Positions 2,281 through 47,939 of a DNA stretch of 64,000 bases are shown in pieces. Both the position numbers and the translations under genes were made by a program. This DNA comes from Nitrospirota bacterium (lineage in GTDB: Bacteria; Nitrospirota; Leptospirillia; Leptospirillales; Leptospirillaceae), in assembly GCA_021810805.1 (NCBI GenBank), contig JAJZHW010000001.1, positions 186,001 through 250,000 on the forward strand. Direction: 5' to 3'. The stretch's first letter is position 1; each line of letters starts with the position of its first letter. The notes under the pieces are model-generated. The model saw only the letters and a program-made list of their open reading frames with translations, made no database searches and was not told the origin of the DNA.

Positions 2281-3213
2281 ATGGACAAAGAAGTCACCTA
2301 CCGAGTCGGCATCCCCGTGATGGGCGTACGGGGCGAATCTCTGGGGCGTCTTGAAAAGGTTCTATTGATGGAGTCTCGCCATCAGGTCACCGCCCTGGTC
2401 GTCCGCTCCCTTGACTCCATGCATATTGTGCCGCTTGAGCGAGTCATGGAGGTCACATCGACGGAGGTTCGGACGAATGTCACGCCGGACGACTTGCATG
2501 GATTCCCGGTCTTTGACCCGACCCAGTACGAGGAAGTTCCCCCCTGGTTCTTTCCTCCCGGCCACCACATCGAGCTGGGAGCCCTCGTGACGATCAAGCC
2601 GCTGGACGTCCGGGAGCAGGGAGAGGAAGAGGCCATGACCCGCCGGGCCTTCATGGGGAGATCGGTGGCAATTTTGGCAACGGCGATCGGTGTCTCCCTG
2701 ATGGTGCCCATTGGAGGCTATATCATGGCCGCCGCCACGACTCCGATGAAGGATTCCTGGCGAGACCTTGGGGTCAAGCTGCAGGATCTGCCCCTGGACG
2801 AGCCGGTGTCCCATTCCTTTCGTGCCTTCTCGGTGAGCGGCTGGATGCGTGTTCCGGAAGAGCGGTCGGTCTGGCTCATTCGCCATTTGGGCCCCTCCGA
2901 CCCCCTCTCCGATCCGGAGGACAAAGTTCTGGGACTTGATTCTCCCGTCGAGCTGGCCGACTCAGACCCGCGCCTGACCGTCCTTTCTCCCGTGTGTCCC
3001 CATCTGGGATGCGAGCCGCAGTGGCACAAGGGTCAGAAGCTCTTTATCTGCCCCTGCCACCACTCCATATATCAGATGAACGGGAAGTGCGTGGGAGGTC
3101 CTGCCCCCCGTCCGATGGACCAGCTCCCTGTTCGCATCGCCCCCGATGGCTCGATCTCCGTCATTTACGAGCAATTCGCCATTGGCATCGCGGCTAAAAA
3201 ACGTCTGGCCTGA
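2281..3213 (+). CDS. Rieske [2Fe-2S] protein with N-terminal PRC-barrel-like domain and internal Tat/TM segment
   Basis: CPHLGC...CPCHHS Rieske ligand motifs; TRRAFMGRSVAILATAIGV twin-arginine/TM segment about 120 aa into the protein; N-terminus resembles PRC barrel (VGIPVMGVRGESLGRLEKVLL...VPLERVMEV). Confidence 0.85.
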   Translation: MDKEVTYRVGIPVMGVRGESLGRLEKVLLMESRHQVTALVVRSLDSMHIVPLERVMEVTSTEVRTNVTPDDLHGFPVFDPTQYEEVPPWFFPPGHHIELGALVTIKPLDVREQGEEEAMTRRAFMGRSVAILATAIGVSLMVPIGGYIMAAATTPMKDSWRDLGVKLQDLPLDEPVSHSFRAFSVSGWMRVPEERSVWLIRHLGPSDPLSDPEDKVLGLDSPVELADSDPRLTVLSPVCPHLGCEPQWHKGQKLFICPCHHSIYQMNGKCVGGPAPRPMDQLPVRIAPDGSISVIYEQFAIGIAAKKRLA

Positions 3214-3229: not shown

Positions 3230-4597
3230 ATGGGACACAAAATTTACGCCTACCTCGATGAGCGCATCAGAATCTCCAGCATGATGAGCTTTCTTTTGAA
3301 CGAGCCAATGCCGGGGGGGTCGCGTTGGGCCTATATCCCTGGCTCCATGGTGTTTTTTGTTCTGATTCTCCAGTTTGTGACCGGGATGATGCTGGCGTTC
3401 TACTATGGAGGCACCCCCGATCACGCCTGGGATAGCGTCAACTACATCGACCACCTCACCTATAATGGGGTGGGCGTGGGACGCTTGATCCGGGGAATCC
3501 ATTACTGGGGCTCCTCGATCATGGTTATTGCCGTAGGGATCCACCTCCTGCAGGTCTTTATTTGGGGGGCCTACAAACGTCCCCGCGAGATCATGTGGCT
3601 CGTCGGTGTCGTTCTTCTTGCCCTGACCATGACGGCCTCCTTTTCGGGGTATCTTTTGCCCTGGGATGAGCGGGCCTATTGGGGGACCATTGTGGGAACC
3701 AACATGATCGGCCTGGTCCCCTTTGTGGGCGAGGCCATCAAGGATGCCATCCGGGGCGGTGTGGGCTTAGGGGCCTTGACCCTCTCCCACTTTTTCACCC
3801 TGCATACGATGATCCTTCCCACCCTCTTCATCCTTTTTGTCATGCTGCACATGGTCATTTTTCGACGCGTCGGTCCCGCGGGCCCCTTTTCGGGGACCCC
3901 TGAAAAGCTTGAGGCGACAAAGGACACCTTCTATCCCCGTCAGGTTCTGATGGATGCCTTTGGGATGATCGGGGTCTTCATCTTCATCCTGGCGCTGGCA
4001 CTTCTCCGTCCGCCGGGACTTGAATCTGTGGCCAACCCCTCCAATGCCGCCTACAGCCCGACCCCGGCCTGGTATTTCGATTGGATCTTCGAGCTTCTCA
4101 AGCTCATTCGGCCGGAAATTGTCGGGGTGGTGGGGCTTCCCGTTCTGATCGCCATTGTTCTAGTCTTTCTTCCCTTTCTGGACAAGAAGCCGGTGCGCTC
4201 GCCCTTCCGGCGGCCCTTCGCGGTTCTCTCCACCCTCTTTGTGCTTACCGCGATGCTGGTCTTCTCCCTCATGGCCGAAAATGGCTACAAGAAGCTTGTG
4301 GATGTGGACCGTGCGGCGATGCTTCGTGGGCAAACGGTTTTCAATACGGCAGGGTGCATGGGATGCCATACTCTCTTTGGCAAAGGGGGAAAGATCGGAC
4401 CCGATCTCTCGGAAGAGGGGCTCGTGGGCCACTCCGAGCATTGGCTCAAGGTTCAGTTCGTGAACTCCAAGGCGCACTTTCCTGATTCCATCATGCCGGA
4501 CTTCACCTACCTCACGCCCCAACAGCAACACGACCTTGCCATGTACATCTCCTCCCTTGGGCGCATGGGGTGGCCTGATCCCACCAAAAACCCCTAG
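3230..4597 (+). CDS. Cytochrome b (b6/subunit IV-like) fused to C-terminal mono-heme cytochrome c
   Basis: Multi-TM cytochrome b (GIHYWGSSIMVIAVGIHLLQVF, SGYLLPWDERAYWGT) followed by CMGCH (CXXCH) and DSIMPDF. Confidence 0.93.
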   Translation: MGHKIYAYLDERIRISSMMSFLLNEPMPGGSRWAYIPGSMVFFVLILQFVTGMMLAFYYGGTPDHAWDSVNYIDHLTYNGVGVGRLIRGIHYWGSSIMVIAVGIHLLQVFIWGAYKRPREIMWLVGVVLLALTMTASFSGYLLPWDERAYWGTIVGTNMIGLVPFVGEAIKDAIRGGVGLGALTLSHFFTLHTMILPTLFILFVMLHMVIFRRVGPAGPFSGTPEKLEATKDTFYPRQVLMDAFGMIGVFIFILALALLRPPGLESVANPSNAAYSPTPAWYFDWIFELLKLIRPEIVGVVGLPVLIAIVLVFLPFLDKKPVRSPFRRPFAVLSTLFVLTAMLVFSLMAENGYKKLVDVDRAAMLRGQTVFNTAGCMGCHTLFGKGGKIGPDLSEEGLVGHSEHWLKVQFVNSKAHFPDSIMPDFTYLTPQQQHDLAMYISSLGRMGWPDPTKNP

Positions 4598-4733: not shown

Positions 4734-4985
4734 TTAACGGGCCGACTTGAGCAGTGAGATCGCCCTCTGCCGCTCCGGGACCCCGACGAAATAGGGGCGA
4801 TCGCCCACAAGAGTGGTGGGAACGGAGCGAATGTTGAAGCGCTCGGCGAGCTCTTTCCCTCGGGGGGTGTCGATGTCGATCTCTTCGTAACTGAACGGGA
4901 TCTCCTGGCGGAGACGGGTCCAGAAACTCTTGGCGGCAGGGCAGCTGGGGCACCAGCTGGCATAGACAAGCCGGACCTTGGCCAT
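4734..4985 (-). CDS. Glutaredoxin/thioredoxin-fold protein
   Basis: VYASWCPSCPAAKSFW and VPTTLVGDRPYFVG cis-Pro region. Confidence 0.85.
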   Translation of the reverse strand: MAKVRLVYASWCPSCPAAKSFWTRLRQEIPFSYEEIDIDTPRGKELAERFNIRSVPTTLVGDRPYFVGVPERQRAISLLKSAR

Positions 4986-42762: not shown

Positions 42763-43683
42763 CTAGTGGTAGGTAAAGATGGGGTGATTGTCCTCAATGA
42801 TGAGGTTGGCGCTGTCGAGTCCGGCACGGATATGACGGGGAAGGCCAAAGATTCCCTGATGGGCCAGTCCATCGTAGAAGCGAAGGTTGTTCAGGCCGCG
42901 CTCGGCGAGAACTCGGTCAACAACGTCCCGGTTCATGGAGAGGGGGTCAACGCCTTTCGAGGCCAAGGTAAATCCCCAGGGCAGACCAAAGGAGGGGATG
43001 TTGACGGAAAATCCTCGAACCGTGGGAAAGGCAGTCCTCATGGTCTGGTAGACGGAGGAGAAGGCAAGAAGGAAGGGATGGGCCGCGGATCCCGCCTGGA
43101 CAGAAATCGTTCCCCCGGGTGAGAGGTGGTCGCAGGCGATCTTGTAAAACTCCCGGGTGTAGAGAAGGTAGGCCGGCCCTTCCTCCACGGGTTCCGAAAG
43201 GTCGGTGATGATGACATCAAAGATCTCTTTCGATTCTTCGAGGTACTTCCGGGCATCGGTGGAGATGACCTCTGCCCGGGGATCGTCAAAGGCCCCCTGG
43301 TGCCATTCGGGCAGGTGTTCCCGGGAGAGGGAGATGACTTGGTCATCGATGTCCACCATGACGGCACGTTCGACGGTGGGGTGGCGAAGGGCCTCCCGAA
43401 GGGTGGCACCCTCCCCTCCTCCCACGATAAAGACGGAGCGGGGAGCGGGATGGGCGATCATCGCGGGGTGGACCAAGGCCTCGTGGTAGATGAACTCGTC
43501 CTCCTGGGTCGACTGCATCTTTTCGTCGAGGGCCAGGGCTTTTCCATAGACATTCGTCCTGAGAATGTCGACCTTCTGGAACTGGGTTTGACGGGAGACG
43601 ATGATGCCGTCTATTCCGTGCATGTGTCCCAGGGACGGGGCCGCGTACTCAATATACCACTTGGAGGCTCTCGCTTGGCTCAT
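42763..43683 (-). CDS. speE: Spermidine (polyamine) synthase
   Basis: QTQFQKVDILRTNVYGKALALDEKMQSTQEDEFIYHE, VFIVGGGEGATLREAL. Confidence 0.95.
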   Translation of the reverse strand: MSQARASKWYIEYAAPSLGHMHGIDGIIVSRQTQFQKVDILRTNVYGKALALDEKMQSTQEDEFIYHEALVHPAMIAHPAPRSVFIVGGGEGATLREALRHPTVERAVMVDIDDQVISLSREHLPEWHQGAFDDPRAEVISTDARKYLEESKEIFDVIITDLSEPVEEGPAYLLYTREFYKIACDHLSPGGTISVQAGSAAHPFLLAFSSVYQTMRTAFPTVRGFSVNIPSFGLPWGFTLASKGVDPLSMNRDVVDRVLAERGLNNLRFYDGLAHQGIFGLPRHIRAGLDSANLIIEDNHPIFTYH

Positions 43684-44128
43684 CCGTTTCGATTCCTTTC
43701 CCCTGGTTGTCGGAGCGATTCCCGGAGAGGGCGGTACTTGCCTCCCCTTCGATCTTGTGGGCGATCTTTTCGTTGGAGATCCCGATGATTCCACGCTTGA
43801 TCTCGTGGATGCTGGGATTGTGGGACTGGAAGGCCCGGGCAAGATGGATGGCGGCCACTTCGGGCTGAAGCGTGTCTCCGCAGGTGAAGACGTCAACCGC
43901 GGCATAGCGATATTCGGGCCAGGTATGAATGGCAAGATGGGATTCGGCGATGACAACGACGCCACTGACCCCAAAGGGGCTAAAGTGGTGGAATTTGTCG
44001 TCGACAATGGTGGCTTTGGCCGCCAGTGCGGCTTCAATCATGGCGTTGCGAACGAAATCCGGATCGGAAAGGGAGTCGGACTGACAGTCTTTCAGTTCGA
44101 CGAGAAGCTGTGTTCCCAAAGCGTGCAC
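43649..44128 (-). CDS. speD: S-adenosylmethionine decarboxylase proenzyme
   Basis: HHFSPFGVSGVVVIAESHLAIHTWPEYRYAAVDVFTCGD with intact E-S-H processing site; GTG start. Confidence 0.95.
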   Translation of the reverse strand: MHALGTQLLVELKDCQSDSLSDPDFVRNAMIEAALAAKATIVDDKFHHFSPFGVSGVVVIAESHLAIHTWPEYRYAAVDVFTCGDTLQPEVAAIHLARAFQSHNPSIHEIKRGIIGISNEKIAHKIEGEASTALSGNRSDNQGKGIETDEPSESLQVVY

Positions 44129-44152
44129 TCGGCACCCCCTGTCGTGAGGTCG

Positions 44153-44287
44153 TTAGGTCAACCCGAAGCCCTTTGGCCAGACATGCCAAAGGCCGGGATC
44201 GGTGGCGGTTAAATGACTGCGTTCCTGTCTCCACGAGCGGAAGGTCAACGTGTTGCCGCCGGTCGTGAGAGTTTCGGGGGAAGTCAC
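44153..44287 (-). CDS. Putative 44-aa leader peptide/small protein upstream of speD
   Basis: GTG preceded by AAGGAG (7 nt); MTSPETLTTGGNTLTFRSWRQERSHLTATDPGLWHVWPKGFGLT; stop 24 nt before speD start. Confidence 0.5.
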   Translation of the reverse strand: MTSPETLTTGGNTLTFRSWRQERSHLTATDPGLWHVWPKGFGLT

Positions 44288-44438
44288 GACAAAGCTCCTT
44301 TGTTGCAGGGAAAGCCAACGGGTAACGCCGATGGGACACGGTCCTCTTCGGTGCGCTCCGGTCGGTCTTGCAGGACCGTCTTTCTGCCATGGATTCCATT
44401 GTCGGGGCAGAGCCGGTTCCCGGTCAACAATCGGTCAG

Positions 44439-44466
44439 AATATACACGATTTTTTAGGGATTGCAA
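44439..44466 (-). promoter_or_regulatory. Putative sigma70 promoter for speD operon (-35 TTGCAA, 16-bp spacer, -10 TATATT)
   Basis: Read on minus strand; gives a roughly 300-nt 5' leader. Confidence 0.65.
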
Positions 44467-44560
44467 GTAATATTTTTATCTTTTAGTTACGGACACTTGG
44501 ATGGACTCCGGGAAGATGTTCTCCCCGGAGTCGAGATCAGAGTGGAGGATCGATCGCGCA

Positions 44561-45217
44561 TTACGGACGCTTGACGGCCCAGGAGACGACCGGCTGGGTG
44601 TTGATCTGGCGGGTGAAATCGTTGATGAAGTCGGCGAAGGGAAGGATGGCCACCTTATGGGTCTTCCGGACCATGACCTTCACATAGAGGGACTTGTCTC
44701 CGGGGACGTAATGGCCGATCCCGTCGAAGCGGACATAGTTCCCCTTGAAGAGGCTGTTCGACAGAAGGATGACAAAGACTCCCCGGTCGAAGGCGCCATG
44801 CTTGACGAGCTGTCCTTTCTTGTCATAGGCCTTTACGACGATGGCGTCGAGAAGGTTGGGTTCGTTGCGGGGATGCCAGAAGCGAACGGTAATCTCATTG
44901 ATTCCATGGAAAGTTTTCGTGTTGGGAATCACGATCTTTCGGCCCCGGGCATCGACGTAGGGCTTTGTCCGTGTAATGTCCATCCAGAATTGGTTGTAAT
45001 GAAGACGTCGCGAGGGGGCAAAGTCCAGCGAGAGTGTCTTTTCCGTCGACCCCTTCTGGGTGACGAACAGAACTTTCTGTCGCGTGGTTTTTGCCAGAGC
45101 CGTCCCAGCTTCATGCCCGGAGAGAAAAAATGTCGCGCCCAGCATCAGTGCGATCGCCAGAGGGCGGGATCGAAGATCTCGAGCGGACAGGGAGCGGGAG
45201 CGGAAAAAAGAATTCAT
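44561..45217 (-). CDS. Hypothetical secreted protein
   Basis: N-terminal signal-like segment LAIALMLGATFFLSGHEAGTALA; no recognised domain. Confidence 0.65.
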   Translation of the reverse strand: MNSFFRSRSLSARDLRSRPLAIALMLGATFFLSGHEAGTALAKTTRQKVLFVTQKGSTEKTLSLDFAPSRRLHYNQFWMDITRTKPYVDARGRKIVIPNTKTFHGINEITVRFWHPRNEPNLLDAIVVKAYDKKGQLVKHGAFDRGVFVILLSNSLFKGNYVRFDGIGHYVPGDKSLYVKVMVRKTHKVAILPFADFINDFTRQINTQPVVSWAVKRP

Positions 45218-45577
45218 GCGATCCTCCTTCGGAGCGTTTCTGTCATATTGATCCCCAATGGACGATGGCCCCGGCCTGCCGTTGTTACACCCTTTCCCGA
45301 AGGGCGCACGCAAAGGTTGCCATCGTCGCTTTACGGATCATGTCAAAGGAATTATACTGAAAGACGGGTTTTTTTCAAGGAGCCGGTTCGGAGGGATGCT
45401 TTTTTTTGTCTTTTCCTGGTGGGTGGTTATGTGGCTCCTTCGCTGCGTGATCGCCGATCTTCGCCACGCTCTCACCGTTCCATGCTCTGAATGATTTTAT
45501 CATTAATATAAGGACACATATCTTCCTTCGGCCGTTTGAGGCCTCCGGGAAGTGTGAGGTCCCATGCCGGAGCCCTG

Positions 45578-46291
45578 ATGTCGACGACCGCCTTTGTTCC
45601 CTTTCCCGGAGTTCGCCCCAACTACGCTGAGATTTCAGGAGTCCTTGTCGATCCGAAATTCTGGACGACCACCTATACCTGTGATGTGGTTCTCCAAAAC
45701 TGTCATTCAACCTGCTGTTACCGCTCGAACATCCTGGCTCCCGGGGAGCGGGCCCGGATCGAGGGGCATATGGAGGGCATCCTTCCGTTCATGGATCCGG
45801 AACGGAGGAAAATCTATGAGACGCGGGGAGGGTTCGAGGCTGTCTGTACCGAACAGTGTCCGGATGGGTGCGAGCTCGACGTGGATGAGGTGGCGGCCAT
45901 GGCCCGCATGTTCCCCCTGGAGGAGGACTATCGATGCAACCTCATCGTTCGCGGTGAGGACCACGACTCCTGTCTCTTCTTGGCAAAGAGCCCCGAAGGA
46001 CTGGAGCACTGTTCGATCCATGCCTATGCCCTGGCGAACGATCTCTCCTGGATGGCCTTGAAACCGGTCGACTGCGTTCAGTATCCGCTCGCCATCTATG
46101 AGGAGAACGGCCGCAAGGTTCTGGGGGTCCAGACCACCCCCTTTCTCTCCCATCTCCCGTGCCATGAGAGTGGCCTGGGCCCCCTCTTCTACGAGTCGAT
46201 GGCTGGAACGATCAAGTTTTTCATGGGCGAGGACTTCTACGATGCGCTCGACCGCCATGTGCGCTCATTGGGAACGCCGTCCCGGTCGTGA
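45578..46291 (+). CDS. Cys-rich DUF3109-like protein
   Basis: CDVVLQNCHSTCCYRSN..., CTEQCPDGCELD, CSIHAYA. Confidence 0.55.
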   Translation: MSTTAFVPFPGVRPNYAEISGVLVDPKFWTTTYTCDVVLQNCHSTCCYRSNILAPGERARIEGHMEGILPFMDPERRKIYETRGGFEAVCTEQCPDGCELDVDEVAAMARMFPLEEDYRCNLIVRGEDHDSCLFLAKSPEGLEHCSIHAYALANDLSWMALKPVDCVQYPLAIYEENGRKVLGVQTTPFLSHLPCHESGLGPLFYESMAGTIKFFMGEDFYDALDRHVRSLGTPSRS

Positions 46292-46294
46292 TTC

Positions 46295-46774
46295 TTGGGT
46301 AGCGCTCCTCTCCGCTCCCCCTGGTTCTGGATCTATTCCACGGGGGGGATCGGAGCCTCTCCCTGGGCTCCGGGAACCCTTGCCAGTGCTGCCTGTGTGC
46401 TCATCTGGCGGCTCGCCCCTTCCCCTGACTGGCGTGTCTTCCTGACCCTTCTCGTCTGTCTCTCCCTTGTGGGGCTTGTGGCATCGGACAGGGCAATCAG
46501 GGAGACGGGGCTCAAAGACCCTTCCGTTGTGGTGATCGACGAATGGCTGGGGCAGGGAGTCGCCCTTCTGGCGGCGCCCCACTCGTGGTCGGGAGCCGGG
46601 CTTGCCTTTGTGTTTTTCCGCGTCTTTGATATCCTGAAGCCCCCCCCGGTCTCCCTTCTCGAGCGGGCTCCTGGAGGAGTGGGGATCATGCTCGATGACG
46701 TGGGAGCCGGTCTCCTTGCGGCCCTGTGCCTTCACTTTTTAATTCTCTTCCTGCCCATTTTGGGGGGAAGATGA
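46295..46774 (+). CDS. pgpA: Phosphatidylglycerophosphatase A
   Basis: STGGIGASPWAPGTLAS, DPSVVVIDEWLGQGVALL, FRVFDILKPPPVSLLERAPGGVGIMLDDVGAG. Confidence 0.93.
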   Translation: MGSAPLRSPWFWIYSTGGIGASPWAPGTLASAACVLIWRLAPSPDWRVFLTLLVCLSLVGLVASDRAIRETGLKDPSVVVIDEWLGQGVALLAAPHSWSGAGLAFVFFRVFDILKPPPVSLLERAPGGVGIMLDDVGAGLLAALCLHFLILFLPILGGR

Positions 46775-46865
46775 GCGATATGTGCCATCGGAGCGCTTCG
46801 GCCTTCGACAACAATAATCATAACGGCTCAAGGGGCGCGAGCCCCGGAGGCTGGTGGGAGGTCCA

Positions 46866-47939
46866 TTGACGGAGAAGGATTCCAATAAACAGAGATCGCT
46901 CGATCTCGCCCTGTCCCAGATCGAAAAGCAGTTTGGCAAGGGGTCGATCATGAGAATGGGCAAGGATGCCCCGATCATTGAGACCCCGGTCATCTCTTCG
47001 GGTTCCCTGGCCCTGGACATTGCCCTGGGCATCGGGGGCTATCCCAAGGGACGCATCATCGAAATCTATGGGCCTGAGTCTTCGGGAAAGACGACGCTGG
47101 CCCTTCACGCCATTGCCGAGGTTCACAAAAAGAATGGCATGGCCGCCTTCATCGATGCAGAGCATGCCCTGGACCTGGCCTATGCCCGCAAGCTTGGCGT
47201 CAAGACGGAAGATCTCCTTATTGCCCAGCCGGACTCCGGCGAACAGGCCCTGGAAATTGCCGAAACCTTGGTTCGCTCAGGAAGCCTCGACCTGATTGTG
47301 GTGGATTCGGTGGCGGCTCTGGTCCCGAAGGCCGAGCTCGAAGGCGACATGGGAGACTCCCATATGGGCCTTCAGGCGAGGCTGATGAGTCAGGCCCTCA
47401 GGAAGCTGACCTCCTCCATCTCCAAAAGCTCGACGGTGGTGATCTTCATCAATCAGATTCGCATGAAGATCGGGGTGATGTTCGGCAACCCCGAGACCAC
47501 GACCGGGGGAAATGCCCTCAAGTTCTATGCCTCCCAGAGACTCGACATCCGCCGGATCGAGTCCATCAAGGAGGGGGATCACGTCTTGGGGAACCGGGTG
47601 CGGGTGAAGGTCGTCAAAAACAAGATGGCGCCTCCCTTCCGGCAGGCGGAGTTCGACATCTCCTTCAATGAAGGGGTCTCCACCGCTGGCGAGCTCATCG
47701 ATCTCGGAGTTGAGTACGGCCTCCTTGAAAAGAGTGGTTCCTGGTATTCCTATGGCACGGAAAAGATCGGGCAGGGGAAAGAGGCGGTCAAAGCCTACCT
47801 GAAGGCCCATCCCGATCTGGCAAAGAGCCTCGACCGGGCGATCCGGGAAAAGGCAGCACTGCCGGCTCCGTTGGCCTCGGAGCCTGCGGCGGAGAGCTCT
47901 CCCGCACCCAAAAATGCGCGGCGAGGGGGGGGCGAGTAG
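46866..47939 (+). CDS. recA: Recombinase RecA (TTG start)
   Basis: [69 protein letters not shown] directly before TTG. Confidence 0.97.

Follow-up and report, generated by a model that had tools for sequence, protein, structure and literature searches.

The window, the whole 64,000-nucleotide stretch of Nitrospirota DNA that was analysed, carries on its forward strand a gene (2281-3213, +) for a 310-residue protein in which a PRC barrel is fused to a Rieske iron-sulfur protein, with full-length homologues in its own family and beyond. The ribosome-binding region of this gene (2266-2280, +) can be read directly from the sequence: an AAGGAG Shine-Dalgarno motif lies 7 bases 5′ of ATG 2281, and a GGAG-type site with the same spacing is found in most congeners. 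The protein is composed of a PRC-barrel core (residues 1-70; 2281-2490, +), a conserved continuation and linker with three short strands that contains VFDPTQYEEVPPWFFPPGHHIELGALVTIKP (residues 71-118; 2491-2634, +), the twin-arginine motif TRRAFMG together with a single transmembrane anchor (residues 119-155; 2635-2745, +), and a predicted extracytoplasmic Rieske [2Fe-2S] head (residues 156-310; 2746-3210, +; PF00355, E 1.2e-9). About 118 residues stand N-terminal to the Tat-type signal-anchor (R121-R122), within which residues 120-148 read TRRAFMGRSVAILATAIGVSLMVPIGGYI; the sole transmembrane-like stretch of the protein spans approximately residues 124-148, with its hydropathy peak at 128-146. 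The internal placement of the twin-arginine and transmembrane segment, which a sequence-only reading of this DNA had proposed, is thereby confirmed. Moreover, R121, R122 and F124 are invariant in 25 homologues, and this RR-F pattern with its one hydrophobic segment identifies a putative Tat-type signal-anchor with a single helix; TatC is encoded in the same genome.

The start codon determines whether the N-domain exists at all. If the start were mis-called, translation would begin at Met119 and the N-domain would never be made, and a purine-rich sequence, GGGAGAGGAAGAGG, indeed lies immediately 5′ of ATG 2635. However, Met119 is missing in six of the 11 congeners compared, where codon 119 is GTC, CTC, CGG, CGG, CTG or TTG (it is ATG in the other five), while all 11 keep ATG 2281 as codon 1, and the region upstream of Met119 is under purifying selection (dN/dS of 0.115 for residues 1-118 versus 0.086 for the Rieske head, across 11 congeneric genes). 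For these reasons the internal start is rejected, and its probability is judged to be negligible. The comparison rules out a start near TRRAF, which the sequence-only reading had named as the finding that would count against it, and indicates that the N-domain is really made. A longer in-frame start at ATG 2227 was also considered and rejected, as it has no Shine-Dalgarno sequence and is not conserved.

The N-domain is a PRC barrel, which is clear at the family, profile-profile and structure levels. Taken alone, the window's protein scores 12.3-12.4 bits against PF05239 (E 0.16-0.17), below the curated cut-off of 21.2, and DUF2171 scores slightly better than PRC in the single-protein Pfam search; further, a PF05239 search of its own genome returned no match at E 0.001, which we attribute to the divergence of this member. 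With a sub-threshold score for the single protein, PRC identity is settled by the family-level evidence. In particular, PRC Pfam matches occur in 18 of 25 homologous N-domains (best E 4.7e-5), and two relatives exceed the curated PF05239 cut-off (L022, 21.4 at full length; G250, 22.1). A blind PRC search of 17 genomes returned five PRC-Rieske open reading frames, two of them over the cut-off. Against PDB sequences, the N-domain profile gave weak matches (best E 0.013), the top four of which were PRC proteins, one being a reaction-centre H subunit; no sequence among the 60 top-ranking PDB matches spans both the PRC and the Rieske parts. Aligned with hhalign to 22 stand-alone PRC domains, the N-domain profile reached a probability of 94.6%, compared to 0.3% for a reversed profile and at most 1.8% for 50 column shuffles.

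The structural evidence is consistent with this assignment. The AlphaFold model of the N-domain has a pLDDT of 90.2 (mostly above 90 in residues 1-70) and a pTM of 0.83, and only PRC barrels stand at the top of its PDB matches. The best Foldseek matches are reaction-centre H subunits, mostly at 1.5-1.9 A over about 70 columns, with a probability of 1.00 and modest E values of about 1e-3; the 50 best matches listed comprise reaction-centre H subunits, archaeal PRC/CdpB proteins, 3htr and 1pm3 (MTH1859). The PRC-like N-terminal extension claimed by the sequence-only reading is thus borne out, and the family-profile and structure evidence answers the objection, raised in the same reading, that a profile search might yield no PRC match.

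Sequence constraint is unevenly distributed along the protein. The PRC core evolves faster than the Rieske head (mean identity of 71% versus 84%), with a dN/dS of 0.146 for residues 1-70, while residues 71-118 have the lowest value in the protein (0.077) and include F78, G100 and P107, which are invariant in 25 homologues. The segment between the barrel and the twin arginine (2491-2634, VFDPTQYEEVPPWFFPPGHHIELGALVTIKP) is therefore more constrained than the barrel core itself, and within it lies an aromatic-proline stretch, WFFPPG, that is specific to the window's family. Because the strongest constraint falls on residues 71-118, they are likely to form a contact or membrane-surface element.

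The Rieske head contains the motifs CPHLGC and CPCHHS, corresponding to CxHxGC and CxCHxS, and its cluster residues are invariant in 25 homologues. It scores below the curated NCBI equivalog cut-offs, with 52.9 of 97.4 bits for TIGR01416 and 51.8 of 250 for NF045928; judged by its sequence, it is a divergent subunit of neither the proteobacterial nor the cyanobacterial type. A match to the actinobacterial QcrA_N family was set aside, as it is weak and covers the anchor region only. With the head outside and one helix crossing the membrane, the N-domain should lie inside; the twin-arginine motif and the single transmembrane segment point to the cytoplasmic side, since the PRC domain is fused ahead of an internal signal-anchor. 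The position of the domain thus supports the earlier proposal that it would stay cytoplasmic. In the full-length model (pTM 0.51), pLDDT falls to about 49-62 around the anchor, making the placement of the PRC domain relative to the anchor uncertain. Across the 25 homologues, the N-domain has no conserved Cys or His position, the best being His96, present in 17 of them; redox-cofactor binding by the N-domain is consequently unlikely, and a direct electron-carrying role was rejected as unlikely on the same grounds.

The cytochrome b gene (3230-4597, +) begins 16 bases 3′ of the PRC-Rieske stop codon, an order that is repeated in relatives, and it is the next gene in fused loci wherever the following gene could be read. 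Its 455-residue product has b6 and subunit-IV parts and a C-terminal c-type cytochrome domain (PF00033, E 7e-43; PF00032, E 4.6e-11; PF00034, E 2e-9), so that cytochrome b6, subunit IV and a c-type cytochrome with a CMGCH motif are joined in one protein. Together, the Rieske gene and the b6/IV/c fusion gene look like a two-gene bc-type complex, and two genes seem to be enough for a bc complex here. In the family to which the window belongs, the gene pair is flanked by FabI and a thioredoxin-like gene, and there are no adjacent bd-like genes. The latter neighbour (4734-4985, -) encodes a small thioredoxin/glutaredoxin-like protein with a CPSC motif and is convergent with the bc operon; a similar gene occupies the same place in a second genome (G015, L073). 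Upstream of FabI, a 340-residue open reading frame (387-1409) resembles a beta-propeller-type repeat protein by eye and has no Pfam match. In other Nitrospirota families, four loci (L068, L062, L066 and L078) have the PRC-Rieske and cytochrome b genes clustered with two cytochrome bd-like subunit genes and a c-type cytochrome; PF01654 was found in L068 and PF00034 in L078.

A phylum-wide profile search of 396 Nitrospirota genomes found full-length matches in ten families (f1, f7, f10, f14, f18, f28, f29, f39, f42 and f43), mostly with E below 1e-80; in the other Nitrospirota families tested, E values were 1e-37 at best, and those inspected have a short Rieske protein of about 145-200 residues that begins near the RR motif. 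The homologue survey that the sequence-only reading had called for therefore places the fusion in ten Nitrospirota families and finds no full-length match in the others tested. The N-domain was directly confirmed in f28, f29, f39, f42 and f43, within frames of 312-330 residues. Full-length identity is 54-91% within the family and about 24-29% to other Nitrospirota families; residues 1-118 are conserved throughout the family and are 16-27% identical to Nitrospirota relatives. In a tree built from the anchor and head only, a single branch (93/87; 96% of bootstrap trees) separates the 22 fused proteins from the rest, in keeping with one fusion event. By these sequence comparisons, the PRC-Rieske fusion has a single origin and is found across a large group of Nitrospirota rather than in this genome alone. 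Plasmid records, searched for fusions beyond Nitrospirota, yielded matches to the Rieske part or to anchor plus Rieske only, none covering most of the query.

Further, the same genome encodes a second Rieske protein of 206 residues that has the same twin-arginine anchor without a PRC domain, indicating that the domain belongs to one complex and not to Rieske proteins generally. The second Rieske gene and a split cytochrome b follow directly after a gene for a GltD-like NAD(P)H/Fe-S protein (G000 contig C16, approximately 43000-47400; L092), an arrangement that is also present in genus g3 of family f1 (L094).

Known systems share parts of this architecture. Like the Rieske subunits of bc1 and b6f complexes (PetA, PetC and QcrA), the window's protein has a Tat-type signal-anchor, a single helix, an extracytoplasmic 2Fe-2S head and a cytochrome b partner; unlike them, it carries a further domain of about 118 residues at its N-terminus, a PRC barrel that would lie in the cytoplasm. 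Actinobacterial QcrA has its twin-arginine motif far from the N-terminus, and hence an internal Tat signal, but its N-terminal extension consists of transmembrane helices and not of a soluble PRC barrel. The best fold match, the H subunit, forms a cap over the quinone side of the photosynthetic reaction centre; like the window's protein, it pairs one transmembrane helix with a PRC barrel in the cytoplasm, at the quinone side of an electron-transfer complex in the membrane. However, the H subunit is a separate subunit of a different complex, with an N-terminal helix, a C-terminal barrel and no redox head. As the window's PRC domain is N-terminal to its helix and its neighbour is cytochrome b, the protein is not an H subunit and at most would work like one. 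Subunit IV of the Rhodobacter sphaeroides bc1 complex likewise has one helix, together with a cytoplasmic part predicted at about 10 kDa, though it is encoded by a separate gene and is not known to be a PRC barrel; its helix lies across those of the Rieske protein and c1, and activity is threefold higher when subunit IV is in the complex (PMC10041115). Cyanobacterial PetP is also a small beta-barrel protein that binds the cytoplasmic face of the b6f complex, but it has an SH3 fold and is a soluble, unfused peripheral subunit (PMC9342900).

We propose that the PRC barrel serves the bc complex as a built-in accessory module in the cytoplasm, docking on cytochrome b from the n-side and tuning the complex, a reading to which we give an even chance. 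The Tat system would export the folded 2Fe-2S head, the single helix would remain as an anchor, and the PRC barrel would be left on the cytoplasmic face. There, the barrel would most probably pack on the n-side of the complex, against either the cytochrome b surface around the Qn site, where quinone is reduced, or the n-side ends of the Rieske helices, and it could thereby stabilise the dimer and tune quinone or proton access and turnover. Such an action would be analogous to that of the PRC-bearing H subunit on the quinone side of the purple reaction centre, of subunit IV in bc1 and of PetP in b6f. The single origin of the fusion and its retention in ten families argue for a function specific to the bc complex; the faster evolution of the barrel core is in keeping with a peripheral role, and also with loose constraint. 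In a bolder and improbable version, the barrel would gate or govern quinone reduction at the Qn site from the cytoplasmic side, for instance to favour reverse electron flow in members that oxidise iron or nitrite, and two different energy-converting complexes would independently have acquired an H-like fold on their quinone side.

Other roles would account for parts of the same evidence. The barrel could be an assembly or proof-reading module that holds the precursor in the cytoplasm until cluster insertion and Tat export are licensed, or that guides its docking onto cytochrome b. Its position directly N-terminal to the twin-arginine motif and the strong constraint on the adjoining residues 71-118 agree with such a role, as does the precedent of RimM, a PRC protein that works in assembly and uses its PRC domain to bind a ribosomal assembly intermediate. 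Yet the same twin-arginine anchor occurs without the domain in the second Rieske protein of this genome and in related Rieske proteins of Nitrospirota, and a permanent fusion is not needed for a role in biogenesis only; we regard this alternative as unlikely, while keeping it in view.

Since PRC barrels are generic interaction modules, the partner could be other than cytochrome b. The barrel might serve as a platform that draws a further partner into a supercomplex, such as an adjacent membrane enzyme or a donor or acceptor in the cytoplasm. Hetero-complexes formed by PRC barrels (8onw and 8qzo, among the Foldseek matches) offer a precedent, and in other families the gene lies between cytochrome bd-like subunit genes and a c-type cytochrome, but the window's family keeps the domain beside FabI and the thioredoxin-like gene without adjacent bd-like genes, and we consider such a platform quite unlikely. 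A passive anchor, in which a folded plug sets the topology and steadies the single helix but regulates nothing, would explain why the barrel core tolerates more change than the remaining protein, and WFFPPG could then lie at the membrane surface; however, its maintenance in ten families since one origin suggests more than ballast, making this explanation distinctly improbable.

A search of open-licence papers for a PRC barrel or PRC domain with Rieske or cytochrome bc found nothing relevant, an absence that is not proof, and in excerpt a 2025 Nitrospirales survey mentions a canonical bc1 complex without mention of an extra domain (PMC12342949). The PRC-Rieske fusion seems so far to be undescribed and unexplained. 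The Rieske subunit of the well-studied bc complex is usually seen as a head on a stick; here, a Nitrospirota group that probably includes nitrite oxidisers and Leptospirillum-like iron oxidisers, which push electrons uphill, has a folded and presumably cytoplasmic domain on it. A protein whose Tat signal is preceded by a soluble folded domain would also be a useful substrate for studies of Tat biogenesis. Overall, the fusion offers a testable case of how a minimal bc complex gains accessory parts, and of whether its turnover may be controlled from the n-side through the Rieske subunit.
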